Shown one piece after another: positions 3,494 to 36,671 of a stretch of DNA of 61,435 bases. The DNA is from Leptotrichia trevisanii DSM 22070 (GTDB lineage: Bacteria > Fusobacteriota > Fusobacteriia > Fusobacteriales > Leptotrichiaceae), in the NCBI RefSeq assembly GCF_000482505.1, contig NZ_KI519445.1:1-61435 (forward strand), read 5' to 3'. The number at the start of each line of letters is the position of its first letter. The first letter of the stretch is position 1. Under the pieces are notes generated by a model. That model had not been told where the DNA came from. It was given only the letters and a program-made list of their open reading frames with translations, and made no database searches. Both the position numbers and the translations under genes were made by a program.

Positions 3494-3535
3494 TTTTAAA
3501 AAGTAAATTTTTTTGATTTTTTATAAAAATATTAA

Positions 3536-3567
3536 AATCACAGTTAAAACAATGGCTGTGATTTTTT
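3536..3567 (+). terminator. Intrinsic terminator after secG
   Basis: AATCACAG and CTGTGATT form an 8-bp stem with a 12-base loop, followed by a T run. It lies inside the longest possible reading frame of the next gene and so argues for a later start there. Confidence 0.85.
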
Positions 3568-3614
3568 CTAATTTTAATTTTAGTTTTTTTGATATTAAGG
3601 AAGGAAAATATATT

Positions 3615-6600
3615 ATGAAAATTAGTTATAAAGGAATTGGATCTGATTTAAAAAATATATTGTTTAAAGAGTTTGAAAAGAATGAAAATACGCTTTTTGT
3701 ATTTGAAAATTCGGCTTCGTTTTTTGAGATAAAGAGGGAATTTTTACAGAATGAGGAAATGCAGCAGAAATTGGGAATTTTTCAGAATTTTAAGATGATG
3801 AATAGTTATGATTTTTATGAGAATGTGTTTGTGACGGATAAGATTGTGGTAAAAGAGGAAAAGCAGGTTGTGCTGTTTTACAATGCTTTGACTGAAAAGT
3901 TAAAAAAGGATATGAAGGTAAATAACTATTATGATATTATTGATGTTGCCTACAATTATTATAATTTATTTGCAGAATTGCAGGAATATAAGATTGATTT
4001 GGAGAAGGTGGAGCTGGAGAAATGGCAAGTTGAAACTTTTGGAACTTTGATTGAGATTGATAATGAGATGAAAAAAGTTGTGCAGCAAAAAGGGCTTATC
4101 TTACCATATATGCTTAGAAATGTGGAAAATATATCAGATAATTTTTTGAAGAAGTTTTCTAAAATTTGCTTTGTGAATAAAGTTAAAATTACTCCATTTG
4201 AAAAAGAGTTAATTGAAAATATTGAAAATAGAGGAATTTATGTAGAAAATATTTTGCAGCTTTCGGAAAATAATTTTAATGAGGAAAAGTTGAAAATAAA
4301 GGACAGTTTTTCATTGCCTGATAGAAATGAGTTTTGGGAAAATTTTGGGACAAATATTGAGATTTTTGAGTATGAAAATAAATTTTCACAGCTTTTGGGG
4401 CTTGTAAAAAAGCTGGATGAAATTGAAGTTTTGAATAATAAAACAAAAAATGAAATTAAAGAAAACTATGATAATAAAAAAGAAATAAAATTAAAAAATG
4501 ATAAGTATTTTCAGAATGAAAAAATAACTGCGGATACAAAAATTATTCAAAATATGAAAAATATTAATAGAAAAAAAATTGAAGATTTAAAAAAGGATGA
4601 AAATCACGTAAATTATAAGATTTATGATTTGCAGGATAATGGAGAAGATGGGAAAAAGGATTATCAGCTTTTAAGGCAGGAAAAAATTTCTTCCAATTTG
4701 GAACTTACGATGCAGAAAACGAAGATTTATAAGATATTGGAATTGATTTGTAATATTTTGGAAAATGTTAAAATTATTGGGAAAAAATTGGAAAATGATG
4801 ATTTTGATTCTGAAATTGAAAAAAATAATAATAATGTTGAACATATTCAAAATGAAGATTTAAAACTTTCTGATAGTAAAATAGAAGAAAATTTTGAAAA
4901 TGTGAAATTTATGAAAAATTATGGACAATCTTTAAAAATCAGGATGAAAGATTTGTATGCTGCTTTTAAATCTAATGATTTTTTGAAAATTTTTGGCTTA
5001 AAAAAGTCGTATGATTTTTTTATGGAAATTGTAGGGCAGGATTATAAGTATATTTCAAGAGATGAAATTTTTAAGATTGCAGAAAAATTGAATAGCAGGA
5101 TTGCTGGAACGGCGGATTCTGAAATTGCGGAACTGATTAATTTTATTAATGAAATTGAAATGATTTTTGACTATCAGACGCTTGAGGAATATGGGAATTA
5201 TCTTGAAATGATTTTTGATAGAAGTGGAGAAATTGATAAGGATGTCAGAGATAAATATTTTGAGGCATTGTCGGAAATGGTAGTGCTGGAAGACTTTTCA
5301 TTTGATAATCTCTGGAAAGATTTTTTTAATGAAAATGGGATTTCAGCAAGTTTACTGAAATTATTTTTGAAATATCTTGATAAAAAGGCGATTAGTCTAA
5401 ATCTTGAAGAAAGCGATAAACAGGACAGTGAAAATATTTCAAGATATTCAATTAATTCATTTTCAGCAATTTCAGAAACACAAAAGGAAAATCTGATATT
5501 TCTTAATGTTCAGGATACTTTCCCAAAAATAAATGTAAATAACTATTTATTCACAAAAATTCAGCGTGCAAAAATGGGGCTTCCTGTAAGCGATGATGAA
5601 AAGCAAATTGAGATTTTTAGATTTTATCAAAATATTTTAGGAGCAAAAAATGTATATTTGTCCTATGTAAAAAATCTGGATGAAAACATAGATTCCGCTG
5701 GAGTTGTTGAGGAAATTAAGCTGAAATATGGAATAGAGGCACAAAAAAATAAAATAGATGAAAATGATGAACTGGATTTTATTAAGAAATATTTTTTGGA
5801 AAAAATGGAAAATTCTTGGGAATCACGAAAAATTGGGAAATTTATTCCAACGAAACTGAAAAAGGATTTGGATAAGATTAAGGCTGAAAAAGTGAGTTTG
5901 GGGTATTATTCCTTTGAGGAAATGCAGAATTTTGAGTATGGATATTATTTGAAAAAGATGATTGGAAATACAGAAGTTGAAAAAATTGAGGATAAAGTTG
6001 ATAATCTGATGTTTGGAAACATTATTCATGGGCTTTATGAAAGAATCGTAATGGAGAACAAAGAACTGCTTGAACAGAAAAAATTTGTTATAAATAAAGA
6101 GGAAATTAAGGAAACGTTGAAAAATATCTTAAATTCACTTGAATACAAAATTCCGAAGGAATATCTGGAATTTTATAAAAAAGTTTCGTTTGAGGAAATT
6201 GTAAAATCTGTTGAAAAAATATTACAAAAATTGATGAAAACACTGGAAAATGAAGAAGAAATTGAGATTTATTCAGAAGAGAGAATAAAGCTGAAATCTG
6301 AAAAGGAAATTTATGAAAATATTTTTATAAATGGAATGATTGACTTGCATATAAAATTGAAAAACAAGGAGATTTTGTATGACTATAAATCTGGTATTTT
6401 GAAAAATAAAAAAGGGGAAGAAAAGAAGGAAAAAGTCGTAAATGCCTTTAAACAGCTGGATTATTATTCTGTTATGCTGCCTGAAAAAAGTGGGCAGGAA
6501 ATAGAGAGATTTGTGGTAGATGTTTGGGATGGCGATATAATTGGCGATACAAGGGAAAAGGACGAAGATTTTCTAAATGAGGAGGATATTCGGGAAGTTG

Positions 6601-6725
6601 TGAAAAAATATTATGAAACCGATTATTATGATATTGGTGACGTAAGAGATGTACAAAATTACACTTATCAAACTTTTAAGGATGTATGCAGAAGGGAGGA
6701 TGAATTAAATAGTGAAAATAAATAA
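3615..6725 (+). CDS. addB: AddB/RexB-like exonuclease subunit
   Basis: Probably the B subunit of an AddAB-type helicase-nuclease that processes DNA double-strand breaks. It has 1036 residues from the ATG at 3615 (AAGGAAGG upstream); the open frame reaches back to 3513, but that part crosses the secG terminator. The C-terminal third carries a RecB-type PD-(D/E)XK nuclease domain: GNIIHGLYE (His), GMIDLH (Asp), LYDYKSG (Asp, Lys) and QLDYYSVM (Gln, Tyr). The N-terminal region shows no Walker A motif, as in RexB. Three of the four cysteines that hold the Fe-S cluster in AddB appear to be missing; only the one in VCRRED remains. The stop overlaps the addA-like start by 14 bases. Confidence 0.8.
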   Translation: MKISYKGIGSDLKNILFKEFEKNENTLFVFENSASFFEIKREFLQNEEMQQKLGIFQNFKMMNSYDFYENVFVTDKIVVKEEKQVVLFYNALTEKLKKDMKVNNYYDIIDVAYNYYNLFAELQEYKIDLEKVELEKWQVETFGTLIEIDNEMKKVVQQKGLILPYMLRNVENISDNFLKKFSKICFVNKVKITPFEKELIENIENRGIYVENILQLSENNFNEEKLKIKDSFSLPDRNEFWENFGTNIEIFEYENKFSQLLGLVKKLDEIEVLNNKTKNEIKENYDNKKEIKLKNDKYFQNEKITADTKIIQNMKNINRKKIEDLKKDENHVNYKIYDLQDNGEDGKKDYQLLRQEKISSNLELTMQKTKIYKILELICNILENVKIIGKKLENDDFDSEIEKNNNNVEHIQNEDLKLSDSKIEENFENVKFMKNYGQSLKIRMKDLYAAFKSNDFLKIFGLKKSYDFFMEIVGQDYKYISRDEIFKIAEKLNSRIAGTADSEIAELINFINEIEMIFDYQTLEEYGNYLEMIFDRSGEIDKDVRDKYFEALSEMVVLEDFSFDNLWKDFFNENGISASLLKLFLKYLDKKAISLNLEESDKQDSENISRYSINSFSAISETQKENLIFLNVQDTFPKINVNNYLFTKIQRAKMGLPVSDDEKQIEIFRFYQNILGAKNVYLSYVKNLDENIDSAGVVEEIKLKYGIEAQKNKIDENDELDFIKKYFLEKMENSWESRKIGKFIPTKLKKDLDKIKAEKVSLGYYSFEEMQNFEYGYYLKKMIGNTEVEKIEDKVDNLMFGNIIHGLYERIVMENKELLEQKKFVINKEEIKETLKNILNSLEYKIPKEYLEFYKKVSFEEIVKSVEKILQKLMKTLENEEEIEIYSEERIKLKSEKEIYENIFINGMIDLHIKLKNKEILYDYKSGILKNKKGEEKKEKVVNAFKQLDYYSVMLPEKSGQEIERFVVDVWDGDIIGDTREKDEDFLNEEDIREVVKKYYETDYYDIGDVRDVQNYTYQTFKDVCRREDELNSENK

Positions 6726-9700
6726 CATAAATGATAACAACCAAAATAAGATTATTTTGAAGGCAAGTGCAGGAACTGGAAAAACTTATAGGCTATCGTT
6801 GGAATACATTGCAAACTTAATAAGAGGCGTAAATTATAAAAATATCGTTGTAATGACTTTTACGAAAAAGGCTACTGCGGAAATTAAGGAGCGGATTTAC
6901 GACTTTCTATATCAGATTGCGTTTGAAAAATATGACTGGATAGGATTGGAAGAAAGTCTAAAAGAACTTTATGGGTTTTCTGACAGCGAAATCTTGAAGG
7001 AAAATTTGCAAAATGTATATTTTGAAATGATAAAAAATAAGGATGAAATCAGGATTTACACAATTGACGGATTTACAAACAGAATTTTTAAAAATACTAT
7101 TGCTCCATATTTTGGTATTTACAATTATGAAACAATTGATAAGGAAGAAGATGAGTTTTACAATGATATTTTGATAAAAATAATTGGAAACAGCTATTAT
7201 TTTGAAAAATTTAAGTTTATATTTGATGAAGAAAAAGACAGAAAAAATATTTCAACTTATGTGAAAATTGTAAAGTCGCTGCTGGATATGCAAGAGAAAT
7301 TTTTGCTGGCTGGCGATAGTTACAAGGAAGCAAATTTAATTTTAAAAAATAATAAATCAAGTAGAAGTTTTGTAGAGAATTTTGAAAATATTTTTGAAAA
7401 CGTGAAAAAAATTGCTGAGATAAAAGGAAAAAAAGTTACTGAAATATTGAATGGAAAATTTACTGATATTTTTAAAAAGTTTGAAGAATTGAATCAAAAT
7501 AATTTTGATATTTCTGCTATGCAAGATAAAAAAATAAAATTAATATTGGAAAAATCAGACGATATTTTTGGCACGGGAAATATTTGGGATGGTGGAAAAA
7601 CTCGTGGGAAAGATGTTAAGGAGCTGCTGGATGAAATGAAGGAAGAGCAGGATATTTTGCGAGAAACAGTTTCAAATTATATTTTTAATGAGGAAGTATT
7701 GCCGACTGACAGGAAAATAAAGGAATTGGCAAAAATTATATTTGATATTGCAGAGCAGACGAAATTAAATACAAAAAGATTTACTCACACGGATATTTCC
7801 ACCTACACATATAAGTTTATTTTTGACAAGGAACTGGGATTTGTAAAGACTGATAATAACAATAGCAACGCAGTTACTGAGGATTTTCTGGAACTTATCG
7901 GTGGGCAGATTGATACGATTATGATTGATGAATTTCAGGATACGAGTATTTTGCAGTGGAAAATTTTAGAATTACTGCTTTCAAGTGCCAAAAATATTAT
8001 TTGTGTTGGCGATGAAAAACAGAGTATCTATAATTGGCGTGGTGGAGAAAAGGAACTTTTTGAAAATTTGGAAAATTTAATCGGCGGAAATGTTCAGAAT
8101 CTAGAAAAATCCTATCGAAGCTACAAGCAGATTATTGAAAATGTGAATAAAATTTTTACTAACTATAATGAAAACTGGAAATATACAAATTCGTTGTATC
8201 GTGATGACGAGGACTATCAGAGAGGATATTTTGGATATTATTTTCAGGAAAGAAAGTCTAGATATGGAGACGAGGAAGAAAAGCCTGAAAAAGCATACGA
8301 GGAAATGATACGAAACTTGAGGGAAGGAAAAATTCAGAATTTTGGTAAAAGCTGTATAATTTGTCGTGGAAATAGGGAACTTGCGGAAATAACAGCAAGA
8401 CTGAATGAGGAAAAAATTCCATTTACATTAGAGAGCAACTCTTCGATTCTGGATTACAGGGCTGTTAAATCACTGTATAAGCTGATAAAATTTTTTGTTT
8501 ATCATAATTTTATTTATTTATTGGAATTTATGCGAAGTGATTTGATTGGCTGCCTAAATGATCACGTAAAATATTTAGTGGAAAATAAAGATTTAATTGA
8601 AAAATATATTACAACAAATATTGATTTTTCTCATAAAAATTTGGAAAATGAGAATAGTTTTGAATATTTTGTGGAAAATTTGGAAAATTTTGAAAAAAAA
8701 GAAAATTTGCTGGAATATAAAAATATTGATTTTATGGAAAGAAATGGACTTTCGTTTTCTGAAATTTTGGAAAAAATAAAGGAACTTTACAAACTTTCAA
8801 TTAATTTGAATGATAAATATGTAAAAGAAAACTTTTCAAAAAAAATTATTCAAGATTTTGATGTAACAAGTTTTTATTCAACAAACAGCGATATAAAAAA
8901 TATTTTTCAATTTTTCAATATTCTAAAGGAATTTGACAACCTTTACGAATTTGTTGTACATATTGAAGATGAAAAGGATAACTTGAAGCAAATAAGCAGT
9001 TCAGATGAAAATGCCATAAATCTGATGACAATTCATAAGTCTAAAGGGCTGGAATTTGACACGATAATCTATTACCGAAAAGGAAAAACTGGAGGAAATA
9101 ATTTCAAAACCTTTGAAACATATTTTGATTATGATGAAAATTTTACAAATGTAACTAATTTTTTAATAACATTTTCAAAATATGCTAAAAATTTGAAAAA
9201 TATAAAAGAATATGGAATAATCGCTGAAAAAAACTCTCAAAAAGAAAAAATGGAAGAAATAAATGCTGACTATGTAGCTTTGACACGTGCGAAAAAAAAT
9301 CTGATGCTGTACTTTGAGGCTTACATAACAAAAAATGGATATTCCGATGATTTAATTAAGAAATTAATTGATGTTTATGATGAAAATACAGAATTTGGAA
9401 TTGGAGAAATCACTGAAACAGAAAGAAAAATTGTGTCAAATTCTGAAAATTTAAAAGAAAATGCTAAATTGGAAGAAAATAAAATAAATAATAAAATCTT
9501 AAAAACTTATTTTTCCGAGGATAAATTTAAAATAAAAAAATCAAGTATAACTTTAGAAAAGGAATTTAAACGTAAAAAAGGGCTTGCAATGCATTACTAC
9601 TTTGAACACATTTTAAATAACTTGAAAACTGATAAATTAATTGCAAAATCAGCACTTTTAAGTCGATATGGAAATATGCTTGGGAAAAAGATTGTAGAAG

Positions 9701-9990
9701 AGCTGATTGTTAGAATGGAAAAATTTATCGAAAAAAATAAAAATATTTATGATAAGAAATACAAAGTCTACACGGAATTTGAAATTTATGATTCTGATGG
9801 AAAAAAGCGTATTATTGATAGAATTAACATTGATGAAGAAAACAAGAAAATCTATATTTATGATTACAAGACTGGATTTGAGCCTGAAACGAATGAGAAG
9901 TATCAGGAGCAAATTAATGAGTATAGGGATATTTTAAGCAAAAAAGTTTCAACAGATTATGAAATTGATGTGAAATTATTGGAAGTTTAA
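6712..9990 (+). CDS. addA: AddA-like UvrD/RecB-type helicase-nuclease subunit
   Basis: The A subunit of the AddAB-type machine: an SF1A helicase with a C-terminal nuclease, 1092 residues. Visible motifs in order: Walker A ASAGTGKT (about residue 20), motif Ia TFTKKATAE, Walker B MIDEFQDT (about 405), motif III GDEKQSIYNWRG, motif V TIHKSKGLEFD (about 770), motif VI YVALTRAKKN. The nuclease has GLAMHYYFE, RIIDRINID, YDYKTG and QEQINEY, so its active site looks intact. The start is a GTG at 6712, 11 bases after GGGAGGA and inside the addB-like gene, so translation of the two is probably coupled. The two subunits would unwind and degrade DNA ends to load RecA. Confidence 0.88.
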   Translation: MKINNINDNNQNKIILKASAGTGKTYRLSLEYIANLIRGVNYKNIVVMTFTKKATAEIKERIYDFLYQIAFEKYDWIGLEESLKELYGFSDSEILKENLQNVYFEMIKNKDEIRIYTIDGFTNRIFKNTIAPYFGIYNYETIDKEEDEFYNDILIKIIGNSYYFEKFKFIFDEEKDRKNISTYVKIVKSLLDMQEKFLLAGDSYKEANLILKNNKSSRSFVENFENIFENVKKIAEIKGKKVTEILNGKFTDIFKKFEELNQNNFDISAMQDKKIKLILEKSDDIFGTGNIWDGGKTRGKDVKELLDEMKEEQDILRETVSNYIFNEEVLPTDRKIKELAKIIFDIAEQTKLNTKRFTHTDISTYTYKFIFDKELGFVKTDNNNSNAVTEDFLELIGGQIDTIMIDEFQDTSILQWKILELLLSSAKNIICVGDEKQSIYNWRGGEKELFENLENLIGGNVQNLEKSYRSYKQIIENVNKIFTNYNENWKYTNSLYRDDEDYQRGYFGYYFQERKSRYGDEEEKPEKAYEEMIRNLREGKIQNFGKSCIICRGNRELAEITARLNEEKIPFTLESNSSILDYRAVKSLYKLIKFFVYHNFIYLLEFMRSDLIGCLNDHVKYLVENKDLIEKYITTNIDFSHKNLENENSFEYFVENLENFEKKENLLEYKNIDFMERNGLSFSEILEKIKELYKLSINLNDKYVKENFSKKIIQDFDVTSFYSTNSDIKNIFQFFNILKEFDNLYEFVVHIEDEKDNLKQISSSDENAINLMTIHKSKGLEFDTIIYYRKGKTGGNNFKTFETYFDYDENFTNVTNFLITFSKYAKNLKNIKEYGIIAEKNSQKEKMEEINADYVALTRAKKNLMLYFEAYITKNGYSDDLIKKLIDVYDENTEFGIGEITETERKIVSNSENLKENAKLEENKINNKILKTYFSEDKFKIKKSSITLEKEFKRKKGLAMHYYFEHILNNLKTDKLIAKSALLSRYGNMLGKKIVEELIVRMEKFIEKNKNIYDKKYKVYTEFEIYDSDGKKRIIDRINIDEENKKIYIYDYKTGFEPETNEKYQEQINEYRDILSKKVSTDYEIDVKLLEV

Positions 9991-28967: not shown

Positions 28968-30011
28968 TTACCAAAAAATATATTTTTTTCTAAAAATCGG
29001 AAATTTCCTATCTACATACTCATTAACATAACATTGAGCTTCAGCATAACTTCCCATTATATTTAAAAAATCCAAAGAATCCTTAAAAATTACTATTTTT
29101 TCATCTTCCACTTTAAGTGCGATAATATAAGGAAATATTCTATTAAAATAATTAAGTTTTTCTTCTTCTGTTTCAAATTTATCTATTTTATTTTTTTCAG
29201 CAGTTTCAAAATACATTTTTAAACCTTCAATATACTCCATTTTTCGCTGTCCTGAAACTGTATATTTTCCTATTGCCTTTTCATATATCAAAAACATTAT
29301 CCCTAAAATTAACAAAATTATTCCAGAAAAAATATCCGCATACAATATCACGCCAATAAACCCGCCCACAGTAGTTGTTACATACAAAAATTTCAATAAT
29401 CCTCTCTGCATGCTATATACATATGCTAGCCATCCAAATATAAAAATTGTAAGAATCATCGAACTTGCAATATCTTTCTGCATTAATTTTGACAATGTAA
29501 AAGCCACACAAATTGCTATTCCCAAAATAAATGGAATAAAATATGAGTAATTATTTTTATAAATCATCTTTTTATATTTCTTTTCCAGAAAATGAACAAT
29601 TCGATTTTTATACCCAATCACTCCCAGTTTATTCCCAAACAAATCATTTTCCGAAAGAACATCCAGCAAATTATTTTCTTCCTCAAACAAGGTTTCTTTT
29701 CTCAATCTCAAATTATCCCTATTTTTCTTATTCAAAGTATATTTCCTATTTCCAGTACCAGCTTCATCAACTTCAGAAATGTATCCCTTTAGTATTAACG
29801 ACAATATTCCAATTTTCAATATTTCCTTTGAATCCCTCTCACCATTAATATAAGCCACAAACATTGCAGAAATGTAATCTGGCTCCACAAATTCAGGAAC
29901 AACTGCCTTTCTTTTCGGATCTCTTCCAAAAAAATACCATGTCAAAACAGAGTACACTACAACAAGCACAACCACAATAATTTCAATTATAACTATATAA
30001 GATTTATTCAT
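28968..30011 (-). CDS. DUF2207-like membrane protein, copy 2
   Basis: A 347-residue membrane protein with one N-terminal helix (residues 6-26) and three or four helices at about 150-250. The segment WYFFGRDPKRKAVVPEF, followed by ISAMFVAYINGERD and ILKIGILSLILKGYI, is like the cytoplasmic half of DUF2207 (YciQ-type) proteins, but the N-terminal extracellular DUF2207 domain is absent. It is a clear paralog of the gene at 30082-31143 (same start motif, GKYTVSGQRKMEYIEG, similar end). The function is unknown. AAGGAG precedes the ATG. Confidence 0.7.
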   Translation of the reverse strand: MNKSYIVIIEIIVVVLVVVYSVLTWYFFGRDPKRKAVVPEFVEPDYISAMFVAYINGERDSKEILKIGILSLILKGYISEVDEAGTGNRKYTLNKKNRDNLRLRKETLFEEENNLLDVLSENDLFGNKLGVIGYKNRIVHFLEKKYKKMIYKNNYSYFIPFILGIAICVAFTLSKLMQKDIASSMILTIFIFGWLAYVYSMQRGLLKFLYVTTTVGGFIGVILYADIFSGIILLILGIMFLIYEKAIGKYTVSGQRKMEYIEGLKMYFETAEKNKIDKFETEEEKLNYFNRIFPYIIALKVEDEKIVIFKDSLDFLNIMGSYAEAQCYVNEYVDRKFPIFRKKYIFW

Positions 30012-30081
30012 TAATCAGCTCCTTTAATACATTTTTATATTTTAACCTTCTCAAGCTCCAAACTTGTCTAATCTTAATAAG

Positions 30082-31143
30082 TCAAGCTTTAAAAAAATCA
30101 AATACATTTTTAAACAATTTATTAGGAAATATTGAAACTGTATATTCATCGACAAAATATTTTGCCTCTTTGTAATTTCCCATCATATTTAAAAAATTTA
30201 AAGAATCCATAAATAATTTAAAACTTTCATCTTCTATTTCAAGTGCAACAGCATAAGGAAGCAAATAATTAAAATAATTCAATTTTTCCTCTTGCGTTTC
30301 AAATTTATCTATCCTGTATCTTTCTGTTGTATTAAAATACATTTTCATCCCTTCGATATATTCCATTTTTCTTCTTCCTGCAGTCGTGTACTTTCCTATC
30401 GCTTTTTCATAAACCAAAAATATTATCCCTAAAGTAAATAAACTTATGCCCGAATAAATATCAACATACATTATAACCCCAATAATTCCACCTATAACAA
30501 CTGTAATATATAAAAATTTCAAAACTCCCCTTGACATATCATACACAAGTTTTAACCATATAATTCCTGCTATTGTGGTACGAACTGAATTTTCAACACT
30601 TCCCTTTGTTAATTTCAATAATATAAGAAATAATAAAATCACAGTTCCTAAAATAAATGGAATAAAACAAAAATAATTATTTTTATATATCGTTTTCTTA
30701 TATTTTTTCTCTAAAAAATATACAATACGGTTTTTATATTTTAAAATTAACTGTTTGTTGGAAAATAAGTCCCCCTCAGACAAAATATCCAGTAATTCAT
30801 TTTCTTCTTCAAATAAATTTGTCTTTCTTAATTCTAAATTTTTTTTATTTTTACTATTCAAAATAAATTTTTTAATTTTTCCTTTTTTATCTTTAATAAC
30901 GGAAATATAATTTTTGGATAATAATGACAGTATTCCAATCTTTAATATTCTTATTGAATCTCTTTCTCCATTAATATATGCCATGAACATTGCAGAAATA
31001 TTATGTGGCACATTAAATTCAGGAACAACGGCTTTTCTCTTCGGATCCCTTCCAAAAAAATACCAAGTTAAGACAGAATACACTGTAACAACTACAACTA
31101 TGATAATTTCCAAAATTTTTATAACAAAATCCACATTTCCCAC
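30082..31143 (-). CDS. DUF2207-like membrane protein, copy 1
   Basis: A 353-residue paralog of the next gene downstream, with the same topology and motifs (WYFFGRDPKRKAVVPEF, ISAMFMAYINGERDS, GKYTTAGRRKMEYIEG). It also lacks the N-terminal DUF2207 domain. The start is a GTG at 31143 with AGGAG 7 bases upstream. It begins only 16 bases after the AAA ATPase gene, so it is probably in one transcript with the accessory run upstream. The two copies look like a tandem duplication. Confidence 0.7.
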   Translation of the reverse strand: MGNVDFVIKILEIIIVVVVTVYSVLTWYFFGRDPKRKAVVPEFNVPHNISAMFMAYINGERDSIRILKIGILSLLSKNYISVIKDKKGKIKKFILNSKNKKNLELRKTNLFEEENELLDILSEGDLFSNKQLILKYKNRIVYFLEKKYKKTIYKNNYFCFIPFILGTVILLFLILLKLTKGSVENSVRTTIAGIIWLKLVYDMSRGVLKFLYITVVIGGIIGVIMYVDIYSGISLFTLGIIFLVYEKAIGKYTTAGRRKMEYIEGMKMYFNTTERYRIDKFETQEEKLNYFNYLLPYAVALEIEDESFKLFMDSLNFLNMMGNYKEAKYFVDEYTVSIFPNKLFKNVFDFFKA

Positions 31144-32824: not shown

Positions 32825-33565
32825 TTATGTATACAATAAATTTTCTATTTTCCTCGAAATTTTTTCTTTCAGTTCTTCTTTTTCAAAATAATCCAGTATT
32901 ACTGAACCTCCTAAAATATTTAAATACATAACAATATCTGTAAAATTTTCTCTTTTTATTTTTACTCCATTTTTCTCAAATTCTAAAATTGTTTCTAAAA
33001 ATACTGATGTAATTTTCTGGCTGTTACTAAAATTGCTGGCAAATAGGCCTGATATTCTTCCAGAAAAATCAGTTTTAAATACATCCAGTAATTCAAAAGG
33101 ATTATCTCTTTCTTCATCATAAACTAGTTTTCCCGTCCACCATAATTTTGCCAACAAATGCTTGATTAACGAGCCTTTTTTACCATTTGAAAAAAAATAT
33201 AATTTTTTTATTTTTTGTGTATCTAATTTCTTCTTATCTAATGCTGAACGATATTTCATATAATCCCAGAAATCTGAATGTGCCATTCCAGCCCATAGTC
33301 TTTCGTTTGCAGCTTCAACATTCGTCAAGTCCTTCAAGGAAGTATACATAATTTTCACATTTTCAATATCACTTTCACTCGGCTTTTCATAAGACATATT
33401 TAATTTAAATTCAGGAATTTCCTTTTTAAACTCTAAAAATGGATTATTATTTTGAAAAAACTCAAAAATCCATTCATTCGAGTTTGATTTGTAACTCTCT
33501 AAATTATTTTCAATATTTTCTCTAAGTTCCTCCAGCGTATTTTCATGTAAAAACTTTAATTTCAT
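32825..33565 (-). CDS. DUF6339-like protein
   Basis: A 246-residue soluble protein. The block ANERLWAGMAHSDFWDYMKYR (about residues 83-103), with its pattern of Arg-Leu-Trp and Phe-Trp-x-Tyr, and HLLAKLWWTGKL further on look like the DUF6339 family, which has no known function. The start overlaps the stop of the preceding gene in an ATGA, so the two are translationally coupled. It is the third gene of the GHKL ATPase module. The family name is from memory of sequence patterns and should be taken as likely, not certain. Confidence 0.7.
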   Translation of the reverse strand: MKLKFLHENTLEELRENIENNLESYKSNSNEWIFEFFQNNNPFLEFKKEIPEFKLNMSYEKPSESDIENVKIMYTSLKDLTNVEAANERLWAGMAHSDFWDYMKYRSALDKKKLDTQKIKKLYFFSNGKKGSLIKHLLAKLWWTGKLVYDEERDNPFELLDVFKTDFSGRISGLFASNFSNSQKITSVFLETILEFEKNGVKIKRENFTDIVMYLNILGGSVILDYFEKEELKEKISRKIENLLYT

Positions 33566-34440
33566 TCATCTTCCCCCTCTTCCTGCACAACTCCAATCTG
33601 TTTCATAGCTTCAAGGCTTCTCCCAATCGGATAATTTATTATTTTCTGTGCCAAGCTATAGGACTGGTAACTTTCAATATTTTCCCAGTTTAACTCAATC
33701 TCAAGATTTTCTAATACTTTTTTTATTGTCCTAAACCAGACATAATCATCATAATTATCATAATCATCTGTCTTTAAGTTTTCCAGAACATAAACTAATG
33801 CTGGAAATATAAGGGATGAATGCAAAATTTCTTGATTAGGTTTACTTTGAGATAACATTGCTATATTCTCGTATTCTTCTTTTGGAAGTATTATTTTTAT
33901 TTTATTTCCCATTATATCAAATTTTACTTCCTTTTCTTCTTTTTCAGCAGTATTTCTCACTAAACAAAAAATTGAAGATGGCTCTCCCAAATTATCATTT
34001 TCCTTTTCAATATGTATTTTAAACTGCCTTGCAATTGCTAGAATACTGGATTTTTCAATAAAAAAGGAAATATCACTATAATCTTCATTAAAATTTATAT
34101 TTATATAATTTTCAATATTCTTTTTAGCTACAATAAAAGTCGAAACCGTTATTTTACTGTCAATTTTTTCTTCTGAAATAAAAATTTTTTTCTTTCCATC
34201 ACCCGACTTCACAATTTCCCTGTATAAAGTCGCCAAGCATTCTATTCTGAACACAAATTCCGCATATCCGTCATTTATCAATCCTAGTAATCCCAAATCA
34301 TCTGTAACTGCTTCCAGACTAACTCCAATTTTTCCAATCCCCTTTTCCACTTCCACTTTTGCCATAAAAATCGAATTTAAATAATCGTCATTAAAATAAG
34401 TTAGTACAGGATACGGATACAACTTATGTTCGATATTCAT
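33562..34440 (-). CDS. Unknown protein of the GHKL ATPase module
   Basis: A 292-residue soluble protein that I do not recognise. The first two thirds look beta-rich (KVEVEKGIGKIGVSLEAV, EFVFRIECLATLYREIV), the last third is helical (LIFPALVYVLENLK, FRTIKKVLENLEIEL). I start at the ATG at 34440, which has GGAGGTGG 9 bases upstream, so the gene overlaps the end of the ATPase gene by 17 bases; the frame is open to 34467. It overlaps the next gene by 4 bases. Tight coupling on both sides suggests a subunit of a complex with fixed stoichiometry. Confidence 0.7.
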   Translation of the reverse strand: MNIEHKLYPYPVLTYFNDDYLNSIFMAKVEVEKGIGKIGVSLEAVTDDLGLLGLINDGYAEFVFRIECLATLYREIVKSGDGKKKIFISEEKIDSKITVSTFIVAKKNIENYININFNEDYSDISFFIEKSSILAIARQFKIHIEKENDNLGEPSSIFCLVRNTAEKEEKEVKFDIMGNKIKIILPKEEYENIAMLSQSKPNQEILHSSLIFPALVYVLENLKTDDYDNYDDYVWFRTIKKVLENLEIELNWENIESYQSYSLAQKIINYPIGRSLEAMKQIGVVQEEGEDE

Positions 34441-36463
34441 AAACATCCACCTCCATTGAACATTCATCAGAATAATTTAAAATAAATGTAAGCGAAAATT
34501 TCTGATTTATTTTTAAATCTTCAATATAAATTTTATCCTGCTTTATTCTAAGCGGCTTTTCAAAATCATCATTTTCATACGCATCCCTAATTTTTGCCTT
34601 CACACTTGCCTGCTCTCCAGAAAGGCTAATTTTTACACTACCCTTTTCAATATCTTTTTTCGGCAATATCACAAGTTTATATTTTCTCATTTTTTTATTT
34701 ATTAAAATAACTCTATTTTCCACATTTGATACAATATCTATTTTTTTTATATCAATAATTCCATCTTCATCCTCCATTATGGAAAATTCCTTTTGTAAAT
34801 TTCTTTTACTTATTTCTCCATTTTTATCAAATAACATTTTTTCATTTTCCATTTCAATATTGGCAAAACTTCCCTTTTCATCAGTAATATTTCTATTTGT
34901 TTCTTCTATATCTTTATTAACATTTTTTCTATTTGGAACACTTTCTATTTCTTCTACAGCCAAATTTTTCGTTTTATTACTAATCTTTTCCGTTCTTTCC
35001 CTTTCACGTTTCCTATCTACAAAAATCGTATTATCTGGCAAATATTCCCCTATTCCATCCATATCCATACGATCTTCCATTTTATTTTTCCCAAGTTCCA
35101 TTATTTTATCACGAATCATTTTTTTCAATTCCCTCAGCACATTCTTTGCATTCTTATCCGAATGTCTGTCAGGCTCCCAGTTATCATGCTGTGGCGTTTC
35201 CATCTCACGAAAATATTTATTTATATCTTCTCCTACAAGCGTAAAAATTGCCGAAAAATGTAAAAATGATTTAAAATTTTTCAAATCAAATATTTTCATC
35301 CCATTGCTTCTTGCCATAAGCACCTGCCTATTAAAATCCCCATACAAAATCCTCAATTCATAATCCCCTAAATCCTGAAACGAATCCTGTGAAACAAAAT
35401 AATTACCCAAATCCATATCATCTATTTCATCATTTATAATTTTTATTTTTTCATTTTCACTATTTGTAAAATTTTCACCATTCTGATTATCCTGATCCAA
35501 ATTCTCATTATTTTCAGCACTTACCTCATTTGAGTCAGTCGCTTTTAGAACTCTGTAATAGTCCCATATCGACTGATATTTCTTCTTTTTATTAATTCCA
35601 TAATCAATTATATTTTTTAAAAGTGTTTTTTGTGAAAGCACGTTCTGATTAATTTTTACAATAAGATTCCGTTTATAAATTGATATTAAAAAATTATCTA
35701 AAATCGCAACCACAAGCTCCTCTTCCCAATTTTTATTTTCCAAAAATCCAATTATATACAAATCCGTTCCAGTTTGCCCTTTTCTTCTAAAATTTTCATC
35801 AAGGACAATTTCTTCAAAAATAGGGGTATTTTTATCAGTATCTCCATAATATCCTATCCCTTGAGTAAATTTATCATTCTCATCATTATCAATCAAAAAA
35901 GAAATCAGCCTTGCCACTCCTTGTGTCGCCAACACTCCTTCCGTATCATAAGTTGTATAAAAAATTGTCCTTAATTCCGAACAGGCAAATGGAGCTGATT
36001 TTCCAATTCCATAGCTTCCACCCGACATTCCAGTCTTGTTTGAAATTCCCGATGATTTGATAAGACTTAGCCATGGTGTTATCTTCGTACTCGTACTTTT
36101 TGAGCCAAGCAATCCTGTTGTATTAAAATCACTTATTCTCAAAACTGTTATTTTCTCTTTTTCTATTTTTTCACACGCATTTTCAAAAAATTTTCTTGCC
36201 TTTTCATCTGAGCTGGAAAAAAGGCATCTTTTCAGTGCATTTCTCAATTTCTCATAACCAGGAATTTTTTTTGTTTCAATTTCAAGTTTAAAAAATTCTA
36301 CTCCCACAGGTATATTTTTTATCCGCTGTGCATCCAATGAATTCTGACATATCTCCTTGGCAAGCGAAGCAAATAGTTTCCCCCGAAAAGTTTCAATTCC
36401 GGCCTCACTGATTCCATGCCACTCTGAATAATTATTTTCTGGAAAATTCCAATTTATAGCCAT
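34424..36463 (-). CDS. GHKL (HATPase) ATPase, MORC/MutL-like
   Basis: A 679-residue protein whose first third is a GHKL ATP-binding domain: N box KEICQNSLDA (Glu37, Asn41), a D-box at LRISDFNTTGL (about residue 115), and a glycine-rich lid GMSGGSYGIGKSAPFA (about 150-163). Unlike histidine kinases there is no phosphoacceptor helix. The lid resembles ATPases of the MORC/MutL-like group that Iyer, Abhiman and Aravind (2008) found in restriction-type operons. The middle and end are unrecognised, with a Lys/Glu/Asn-rich linker near 330-350 and 490-560. The ATG at 36463 has AGGAGGG upstream. It is the first gene of the module. Confidence 0.75.
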   Translation of the reverse strand: MAINWNFPENNYSEWHGISEAGIETFRGKLFASLAKEICQNSLDAQRIKNIPVGVEFFKLEIETKKIPGYEKLRNALKRCLFSSSDEKARKFFENACEKIEKEKITVLRISDFNTTGLLGSKSTSTKITPWLSLIKSSGISNKTGMSGGSYGIGKSAPFACSELRTIFYTTYDTEGVLATQGVARLISFLIDNDENDKFTQGIGYYGDTDKNTPIFEEIVLDENFRRKGQTGTDLYIIGFLENKNWEEELVVAILDNFLISIYKRNLIVKINQNVLSQKTLLKNIIDYGINKKKKYQSIWDYYRVLKATDSNEVSAENNENLDQDNQNGENFTNSENEKIKIINDEIDDMDLGNYFVSQDSFQDLGDYELRILYGDFNRQVLMARSNGMKIFDLKNFKSFLHFSAIFTLVGEDINKYFREMETPQHDNWEPDRHSDKNAKNVLRELKKMIRDKIMELGKNKMEDRMDMDGIGEYLPDNTIFVDRKRERERTEKISNKTKNLAVEEIESVPNRKNVNKDIEETNRNITDEKGSFANIEMENEKMLFDKNGEISKRNLQKEFSIMEDEDGIIDIKKIDIVSNVENRVILINKKMRKYKLVILPKKDIEKGSVKISLSGEQASVKAKIRDAYENDDFEKPLRIKQDKIYIEDLKINQKFSLTFILNYSDECSMEVDVYEYRT

Positions 36464-36501
36464 AATTTCCAACCCTCCTAAACAGCCTAATATTTACCAT
36501 A

Positions 36502-36530
36502 ATTATATCATTAAAAAAATTTTCTTTCAA
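36502..36530 (-). promoter_or_regulatory. Promoter of the GHKL ATPase module
   Basis: On the minus strand TTGAAA and TATAAT are 17 bases apart, about 40 bases before the ATPase start. It is back-to-back with the tRNA-Thr promoter, 18 bases away. Confidence 0.75.
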
Positions 36531-36548
36531 TAAAAACAAAAATTTCCC

Positions 36549-36595: not shown

Positions 36596-36671
<76 letters not shown>

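Follow-up and report, generated by a model that had tools for sequence, protein, structure and literature searches.

Introduction

The GHKL proteins associated with restriction-modification (R-M) systems have been divided into MORC and paraMORC1 to paraMORC5 (Iyer, Abhiman and Aravind 2008, PMC2292703). MORC proteins are defined there by the motif GhXhhpXXRhl in the S5 domain and paraMORC2 by an ExxxH motif at the C-terminal part of S5, while paraMORC3, paraMORC4, and paraMORC5 have C-terminal nuclease, TIR, and HxH domains, respectively. A GHKL domain also forms the N-terminus of VcSduA, a Shedu which is an active anti-phage protein (PMC12137116). PDC-M33 is an unvalidated candidate in PADLOC-DB 2.0.0 and belongs to the guilt-by-embedding set of Payne and colleagues; PDC candidates came from guilt-by-embedding, and experimental validation is pending for most of them (PMC12988326).

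In this study, I analysed a stretch of 61,435 nucleotides (the window) from Leptotrichia trevisanii DSM 22070, which contains three overlapping genes named A, B, and C here. The initial annotation called the trio a candidate new system. This does not hold, since PADLOC already lists the trio as PDC-M33, and its ATPase has the defining motif of the paraMORC2 proteins of 2008. The kind is thus known; what is added here is the filing of PDC-M33A as a paraMORC2-type protein, the near-obligate trio, the methyltransferase enrichment, and a branch without linked C5 methyltransferases. Neither "PDC-M33", "DUF6339", nor an experiment on the trio was found in the papers searched, preprints and supplements lying outside the search.

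Structure of the locus

The features of the locus are as follows.

36596-36671, strand opposite to the trio: tRNA-Thr gene, with a perfect promoter match of its own
36528-36545, no strand: right-hand end of the acquired segment, lying immediately 5′ of the tRNA-Thr promoter and placed by the colinearity of five congeners
36502-36530, minus strand: promoter-like site of the operon, TTGAAA-N17-TATAAT with a TG before the −10 element (extended −10), 11 of 12 positions matching; a consensus match only
34424-36463, minus strand: gene A, GHKL+S5 ATPase (PDC-M33A; filed as paraMORC2-type), 679 amino acids, ATG at 36463
33562-34440, minus strand: gene B (PDC-M33B), 292 amino acids, with the conserved start MNIEHKLYPYPVL at 34440 as the best choice
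32825-33565, minus strand: gene C, DUF6339 protein (PDC-M33C), 246 amino acids
31160-32803: next gene downstream of the trio, AAA-ATPase_like and PDDEXK_9 protein

The three ORFs, their overlaps of 17 nt (A/B) and 4 nt (B/C, ATGA), and the single promoter-like site are all present as first annotated. An alternative start of gene A is a TTG at 36472. Among the relatives, the A/B overlap is kept: of the 82 measurable loci, 30 have 17 nt and 27 have 11 nt. Thus, the conserved overlap points to coupled translation.

No recognised defence system was found beside the window locus. The initial statement that a methyltransferase, a Z1 helicase, and a PD-(D/E)XK subunit are missing from the locus is correct for the first two; the adjoining downstream gene, which is outside the unit, carries PDDEXK_9. 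This AAA/PDDEXK_9 family is multicopy, with 18 matches in the window genome (some partial or broken) and more in every congener, and the gene is tied to a DUF2207 block in another genome. The gene was therefore rejected as a nuclease partner of the trio. Farther away, window positions 3513-9990 contain an adjacent pair of a PD-(D/E)XK protein and a UvrD-type helicase, which has the look of an AddB/AddA-type recombination nuclease pair.

The ATPase and its partner proteins

Gene A matches PDC-M33A of PADLOC with an E-value of 2.9e-201, while no family was found for it in the Pfam search. As initially annotated, the protein has a GHKL ATP site, and the motifs are essentially invariant in the alignment of the relatives: the N-box (E37/Q40/N41/D44/A45), D112xNTxGL, and GGSxGIGK. 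The key residues of these motifs are kept in 68 to 73 of the 73 sequences. In the predicted structure (mean pLDDT 83.5), residues 11-469 hold the GHKL and S5 transducer domains; a disordered linker (478-550) then leads to a β-sandwich at the C-terminus, which gave no clear fold match. Residues 11-469 match the folds of Hsp90 (Z = 19.1), MORC3 (18.6), TopoVI-B (15.6), MutL (15.2-15.3), and DNA-bound MORC2 (15.2), the aligned range being the GHKL and transducer domains of MutL, TopoVI-B, and MORC. The profiles of A, B, and C found no relative of known structure among the PDB sequences.

Is this ATPase a housekeeping protein? No housekeeping MutL, Hsp90, or topoisomerase profile of Pfam matched A, and the gene is not universal in the genus, being present in only one of 13 genomes. 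The initial view that the ATPase belongs with MutL and MORC and is not a housekeeping protein is thus borne out by the fold matches, the lack of a housekeeping match, and the distribution.

All 73 relatives of A have the ExxxH motif (E422 and H426 in the window protein), while none has the MORC motif GhXhhpXXRhl in S5. The C-terminus of A has no nuclease domain of the restriction-endonuclease fold, TIR domain, or HxH domain of the paraMORC3/4/5 type in the Pfam and PADLOC searches; HxH occurs in two of the 73 relatives. Protein A is therefore filed as a paraMORC2-type GHKL+S5 ATPase, an assignment made by the described motif and the modelled architecture, not by alignment to the members named in 2008.

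Gene B matches PDC-M33B (E = 2e-89). As first annotated, the protein has no known family, since Pfam has none for it. Its model (pLDDT 93) has a β-sandwich at the N-terminus and a helical C-terminus. Only common β-sandwich look-alikes were retrieved (Z at most 8.7, over stretches of about 80-95 residues), which are not informative about kinship. The third protein is DUF6339-like, as proposed, since it matches Pfam DUF6339 (PF19866) with an E-value of 1.6e-50 over positions 1-174 of the 175-position profile, as well as PDC-M33C (E = 3.9e-90). No nuclease domain was recognised in A, B, or C, and B and C show no conserved motif of an effector or a nuclease. From conservation in the alignments, the candidate catalytic residues may be H65 (Arg in the window protein) and E67 of B, and E88, D150, and D225 of C.

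Conservation of the trio

Is the trio a conserved unit? With an alignment as the query, the genome contigs yielded at least 390 confirmed bacterial relatives of A, whereas a single-protein query gave none. Genes A, B, and C, which lie adjacent on the same strand in the window, occur together in 97 of the 107 fetched loci, generally in the order A-B-C. The other ten loci are cut at contig ends, are one locus fetched twice, or belong to a divergent group. The trio loci span Fusobacteriota, Bacillota, Actinomycetota, Deinococcota, Spirochaetota, Thermotogota, and other phyla. Among 98 Fusobacteriota genomes, the strong matches to A, B, and C fall in an identical set of seven genomes; the chance of one seven-genome set equalling another is about 7e-11. 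Thus, the ATPase is almost never without both partner proteins. The lack of a conserved neighbourhood, which the initial annotation had set beforehand as grounds for abandoning the proposal, was not observed.

Two loci have a divergent operon, A′-B′-C′ (L121:9326-12891 and L019:7899-11459). The former lies between type II and type I Zorya systems, beside a type IV restriction enzyme. Its third gene has no Pfam or PADLOC family match, and kinship of the divergent third gene to DUF6339 is unproven (hhalign E = 0.012, probability 3.6%). The divergent operons are possibly a second type of trio system.

Mobility and insertion site

Gene A is absent from the 12 other genomes of the genus. Five congeners are colinear with the window only rightwards of about 36528-36540, that is, from the tRNA-Thr promoter on. 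In a genome of the sister species (G077), the left flank is kept, and the 5′ part of gene A persists in broken form at the same site. Read most simply, the trio was present in the common ancestor with G077 and then decayed there. In other Fusobacteriota genera, the trio lies at different sites. Relatives are also found in 22 plasmid records, including conjugative and mobilizable plasmids, with hosts in Lactococcus, Ligilactobacillus, Priestia, Planococcus, Arthrobacter, and Deinococcus, and on six IMG/VR contigs. The trio is thus accessory, as had been supposed, and mobile, given the 12 congeners without A, the broken copy, the varied sites, and the plasmid carriage.

The initial annotation also pointed to the adjacent tRNA gene. 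The adjacency turned out to be incidental, because in six other Fusobacteriota genomes the roughly 20 kb fetched around the trio, or around its divergent form, contain no tRNA gene. The tRNA gene was rejected as the integration site, as the insertion is on its 5′ side and there is no adjacent integrase. A search for direct repeats flanking the operon gave only AT-rich chance matches.

On the left side, window positions 28968-31143 encode two tandem DUF2207_C membrane proteins. This block and the AAA gene are colinear with a contig (L115) of another genome (G073) that has no trio. Thus, the left flank of the trio has probably been rearranged too.

Restriction-modification and defence genes around the relatives

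In 93 surveyed loci, the genes in reach of the trio include a C5 cytosine methyltransferase (45 loci), a PLD-helicase of the type IV restriction kind (20), Vsr (9), a MutH/Sau3AI-type enzyme (7), and a Z1 helicase (6). Further neighbours of the relatives are AbiG, Shedu, a type IIG R-M enzyme, and type IV restriction endonucleases. For 26 loci, the whole genome was searched, and a C5 methyltransferase lies within about 10 kb (a span of about 22 kb) in 14 of the 26 genomes, whereas the number of methyltransferases per genome would lead one to expect 0.24; the enrichment is about 60-fold. It is the immediate neighbour in 20 of the 70 loci with both flanks. The expected occurrence of the trio among the defence genes of other genomes was thus confirmed, the company being C5 methyltransferases and restriction, Abi, Shedu, and Zorya genes.

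R-M neighbourhoods of the paraMORC2 style are seen for the family but are absent at the window locus. In the tree of A, the window protein falls in a 15-row branch (support 96), its nearest relative being from a Leptotrichiaceae metagenome-assembled genome (62% identity). No linked C5 methyltransferase was found in this branch; with some of its contigs being short, this indicates a tendency and does not amount to proof. In three Leptotrichiaceae loci (L116, L117, and L120), the trio is alone among apparent housekeeping genes. The initially noted absence of a methyltransferase holds for the window locus and its branch but not for the family. In the window genome (G000), the only near-full-length match to a C5 cytosine methyltransferase (C37:583-1503) has an internal stop, and a second match (C12:550-726) is a fragment. 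Thus, no intact C5 methyltransferase partner is evident in this genome.

Two other genes recur at the loci of the relatives. At least 33 loci encode, immediately upstream of A, a small conserved protein of about 76-83 amino acids (KREKFVRLAEARTNKIIDMIQLLGNCSN...; for example, L045:5087-5317, L118:11854-12105, and just upstream of A in L102); it has no Pfam or PADLOC match and is absent at the window. A protein of about 1000 amino acids, with an RNA-polymerase-alpha-CTD-like region and a sigma region 4-like segment, is found at 12 loci (for example, L050:6816-9815), mostly directly downstream of C.

Comparison with known systems

All three window proteins have their likes in PDC-M33 in the same combination, and the only difference found is the window branch without linked C5 methyltransferases. 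Mza is composed of MutL-like, Z1, DUF4420, and AIPR proteins. Mza and the type II R-M systems with Z1 resemble the relatives of the trio in having a GHKL ATPase alongside R-M type genes, Z1 being a neighbour in the six loci above. They differ in that Z1 and the methylase are optional neighbours outside the unit in the trio loci, and no Mza model of PADLOC matches A, B, or C.

The trio ATPases share the GHKL+S5 fold with prokaryotic and eukaryotic MORC proteins (MORC3 and DNA-bound MORC2 above), whereas the S5 motif of MORC is missing in all 73, and no CW domain was recognised. They resemble paraMORC2 in the GHKL and S5 domains, the ExxxH ending S5, the Gram-positive-rich and patchy distribution, and the R-M neighbourhoods of C5 methylases, Vsr, and helicases (PMC2292703). 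The differences are the lack of a linked C5 methylase in the window branch and the partners B and C, which are not in the available text on paraMORC2. VcSduA has a GHKL ATPase like the trio, but its nuclease is fused, whereas no nuclease domain is recognised in the trio (PMC12137116).

Function of the trio

Sequence and model show the trio to be a copy of the mobile PDC-M33 candidate operon, centred on a paraMORC2-type GHKL+S5 ATPase. It is probably a mobile defence module, in which A would be an ATP-gated DNA clamp working with B and C. Its neighbours and mobility make a defence role, aimed at phages or other foreign DNA, quite probable, although the neighbourhood evidence also allows another mobile-DNA role, such as plasmid or prophage maintenance.

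Could the trio instead be an accessory of R-M systems, in which A, as a motor that loops or translocates DNA, helps the R-M system to find and cut its target? This role was predicted for paraMORC2 in 2008 (PMC2292703), and the frequency of C5 methyltransferases, both in reach and as immediate neighbours, agrees with it; the window copy would then work with an unlinked R-M system or be an orphan. On the other hand, the 15-row branch has no row linked to a C5 methyltransferase (with some short flanks), the three Leptotrichiaceae loci have the trio alone, and the one near-full-length methyltransferase of the window genome is interrupted. The partner types also vary, which fits shared islands better than a fixed complex. 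An R-M accessory is thus rather unlikely, if possible.

It is doubtful that the trio serves mobile elements as an addiction or competition module, for plasmid keeping or exclusion, with phage defence as a side effect at most. The plasmid records, the IMG/VR contigs, and the solitary insertions without other recognised cargo would suit such a module, but a toxin-antitoxin-like pair is lacking, a set of three co-conserved proteins with 250-680 amino acids is atypical for addiction, and a broken copy persists in G077. A stress or DNA-repair module, in which a MutL-like clamp acts in mismatch or modification repair and not in defence, is very improbable: the fold of A is close to MutL and TopoVI-B and Vsr or MutH-type nucleases adjoin some loci, but the patchy distribution, the loss in the sister species, the plasmid carriage, and the company of Abi, Shedu, Zorya, and R-M genes argue against it.

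If the trio is a defence operon with a DNA clamp, how might it work? By analogy with MutL, TopoVI-B, and MORC, A may dimerise upon ATP binding and close as a clamp on DNA. B and C, co-made via the overlapping genes, may complete the complex for recognition, loading, and the effector function. In relatives beside an R-M system, the clamp would probably cooperate with that system or back it up, whereas in the Leptotrichiaceae branch the trio would have to act alone or with unlinked genes. This mechanism as a whole is tentative. Since the window branch has no linked C5 methyltransferase, the trio appears to be stand-alone there. Since no nuclease is recognised in A, B, or C, the effect may be non-cleaving, such as DNA trapping or silencing, or one of the proteins may have an unrecognised active site. 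It is conceivable, but unlikely, that the Leptotrichiaceae-type trio is a complete stand-alone immunity without a nuclease or a methyltransferase, in which a MORC-like clamp and two partners trap or silence invading DNA.

The paraMORC2 prediction of 2008 and the candidate PDC-M33 with its DUF6339 protein are now joined; no such joining was found in the papers searched. Should the three genes protect cells by themselves, they would offer a clean model in bacteria of the action of a MORC-type clamp on foreign DNA, which has been an open question since 2008. If the stand-alone silencing is true, the trio would be a bacterial counterpart of eukaryotic MORC silencing.
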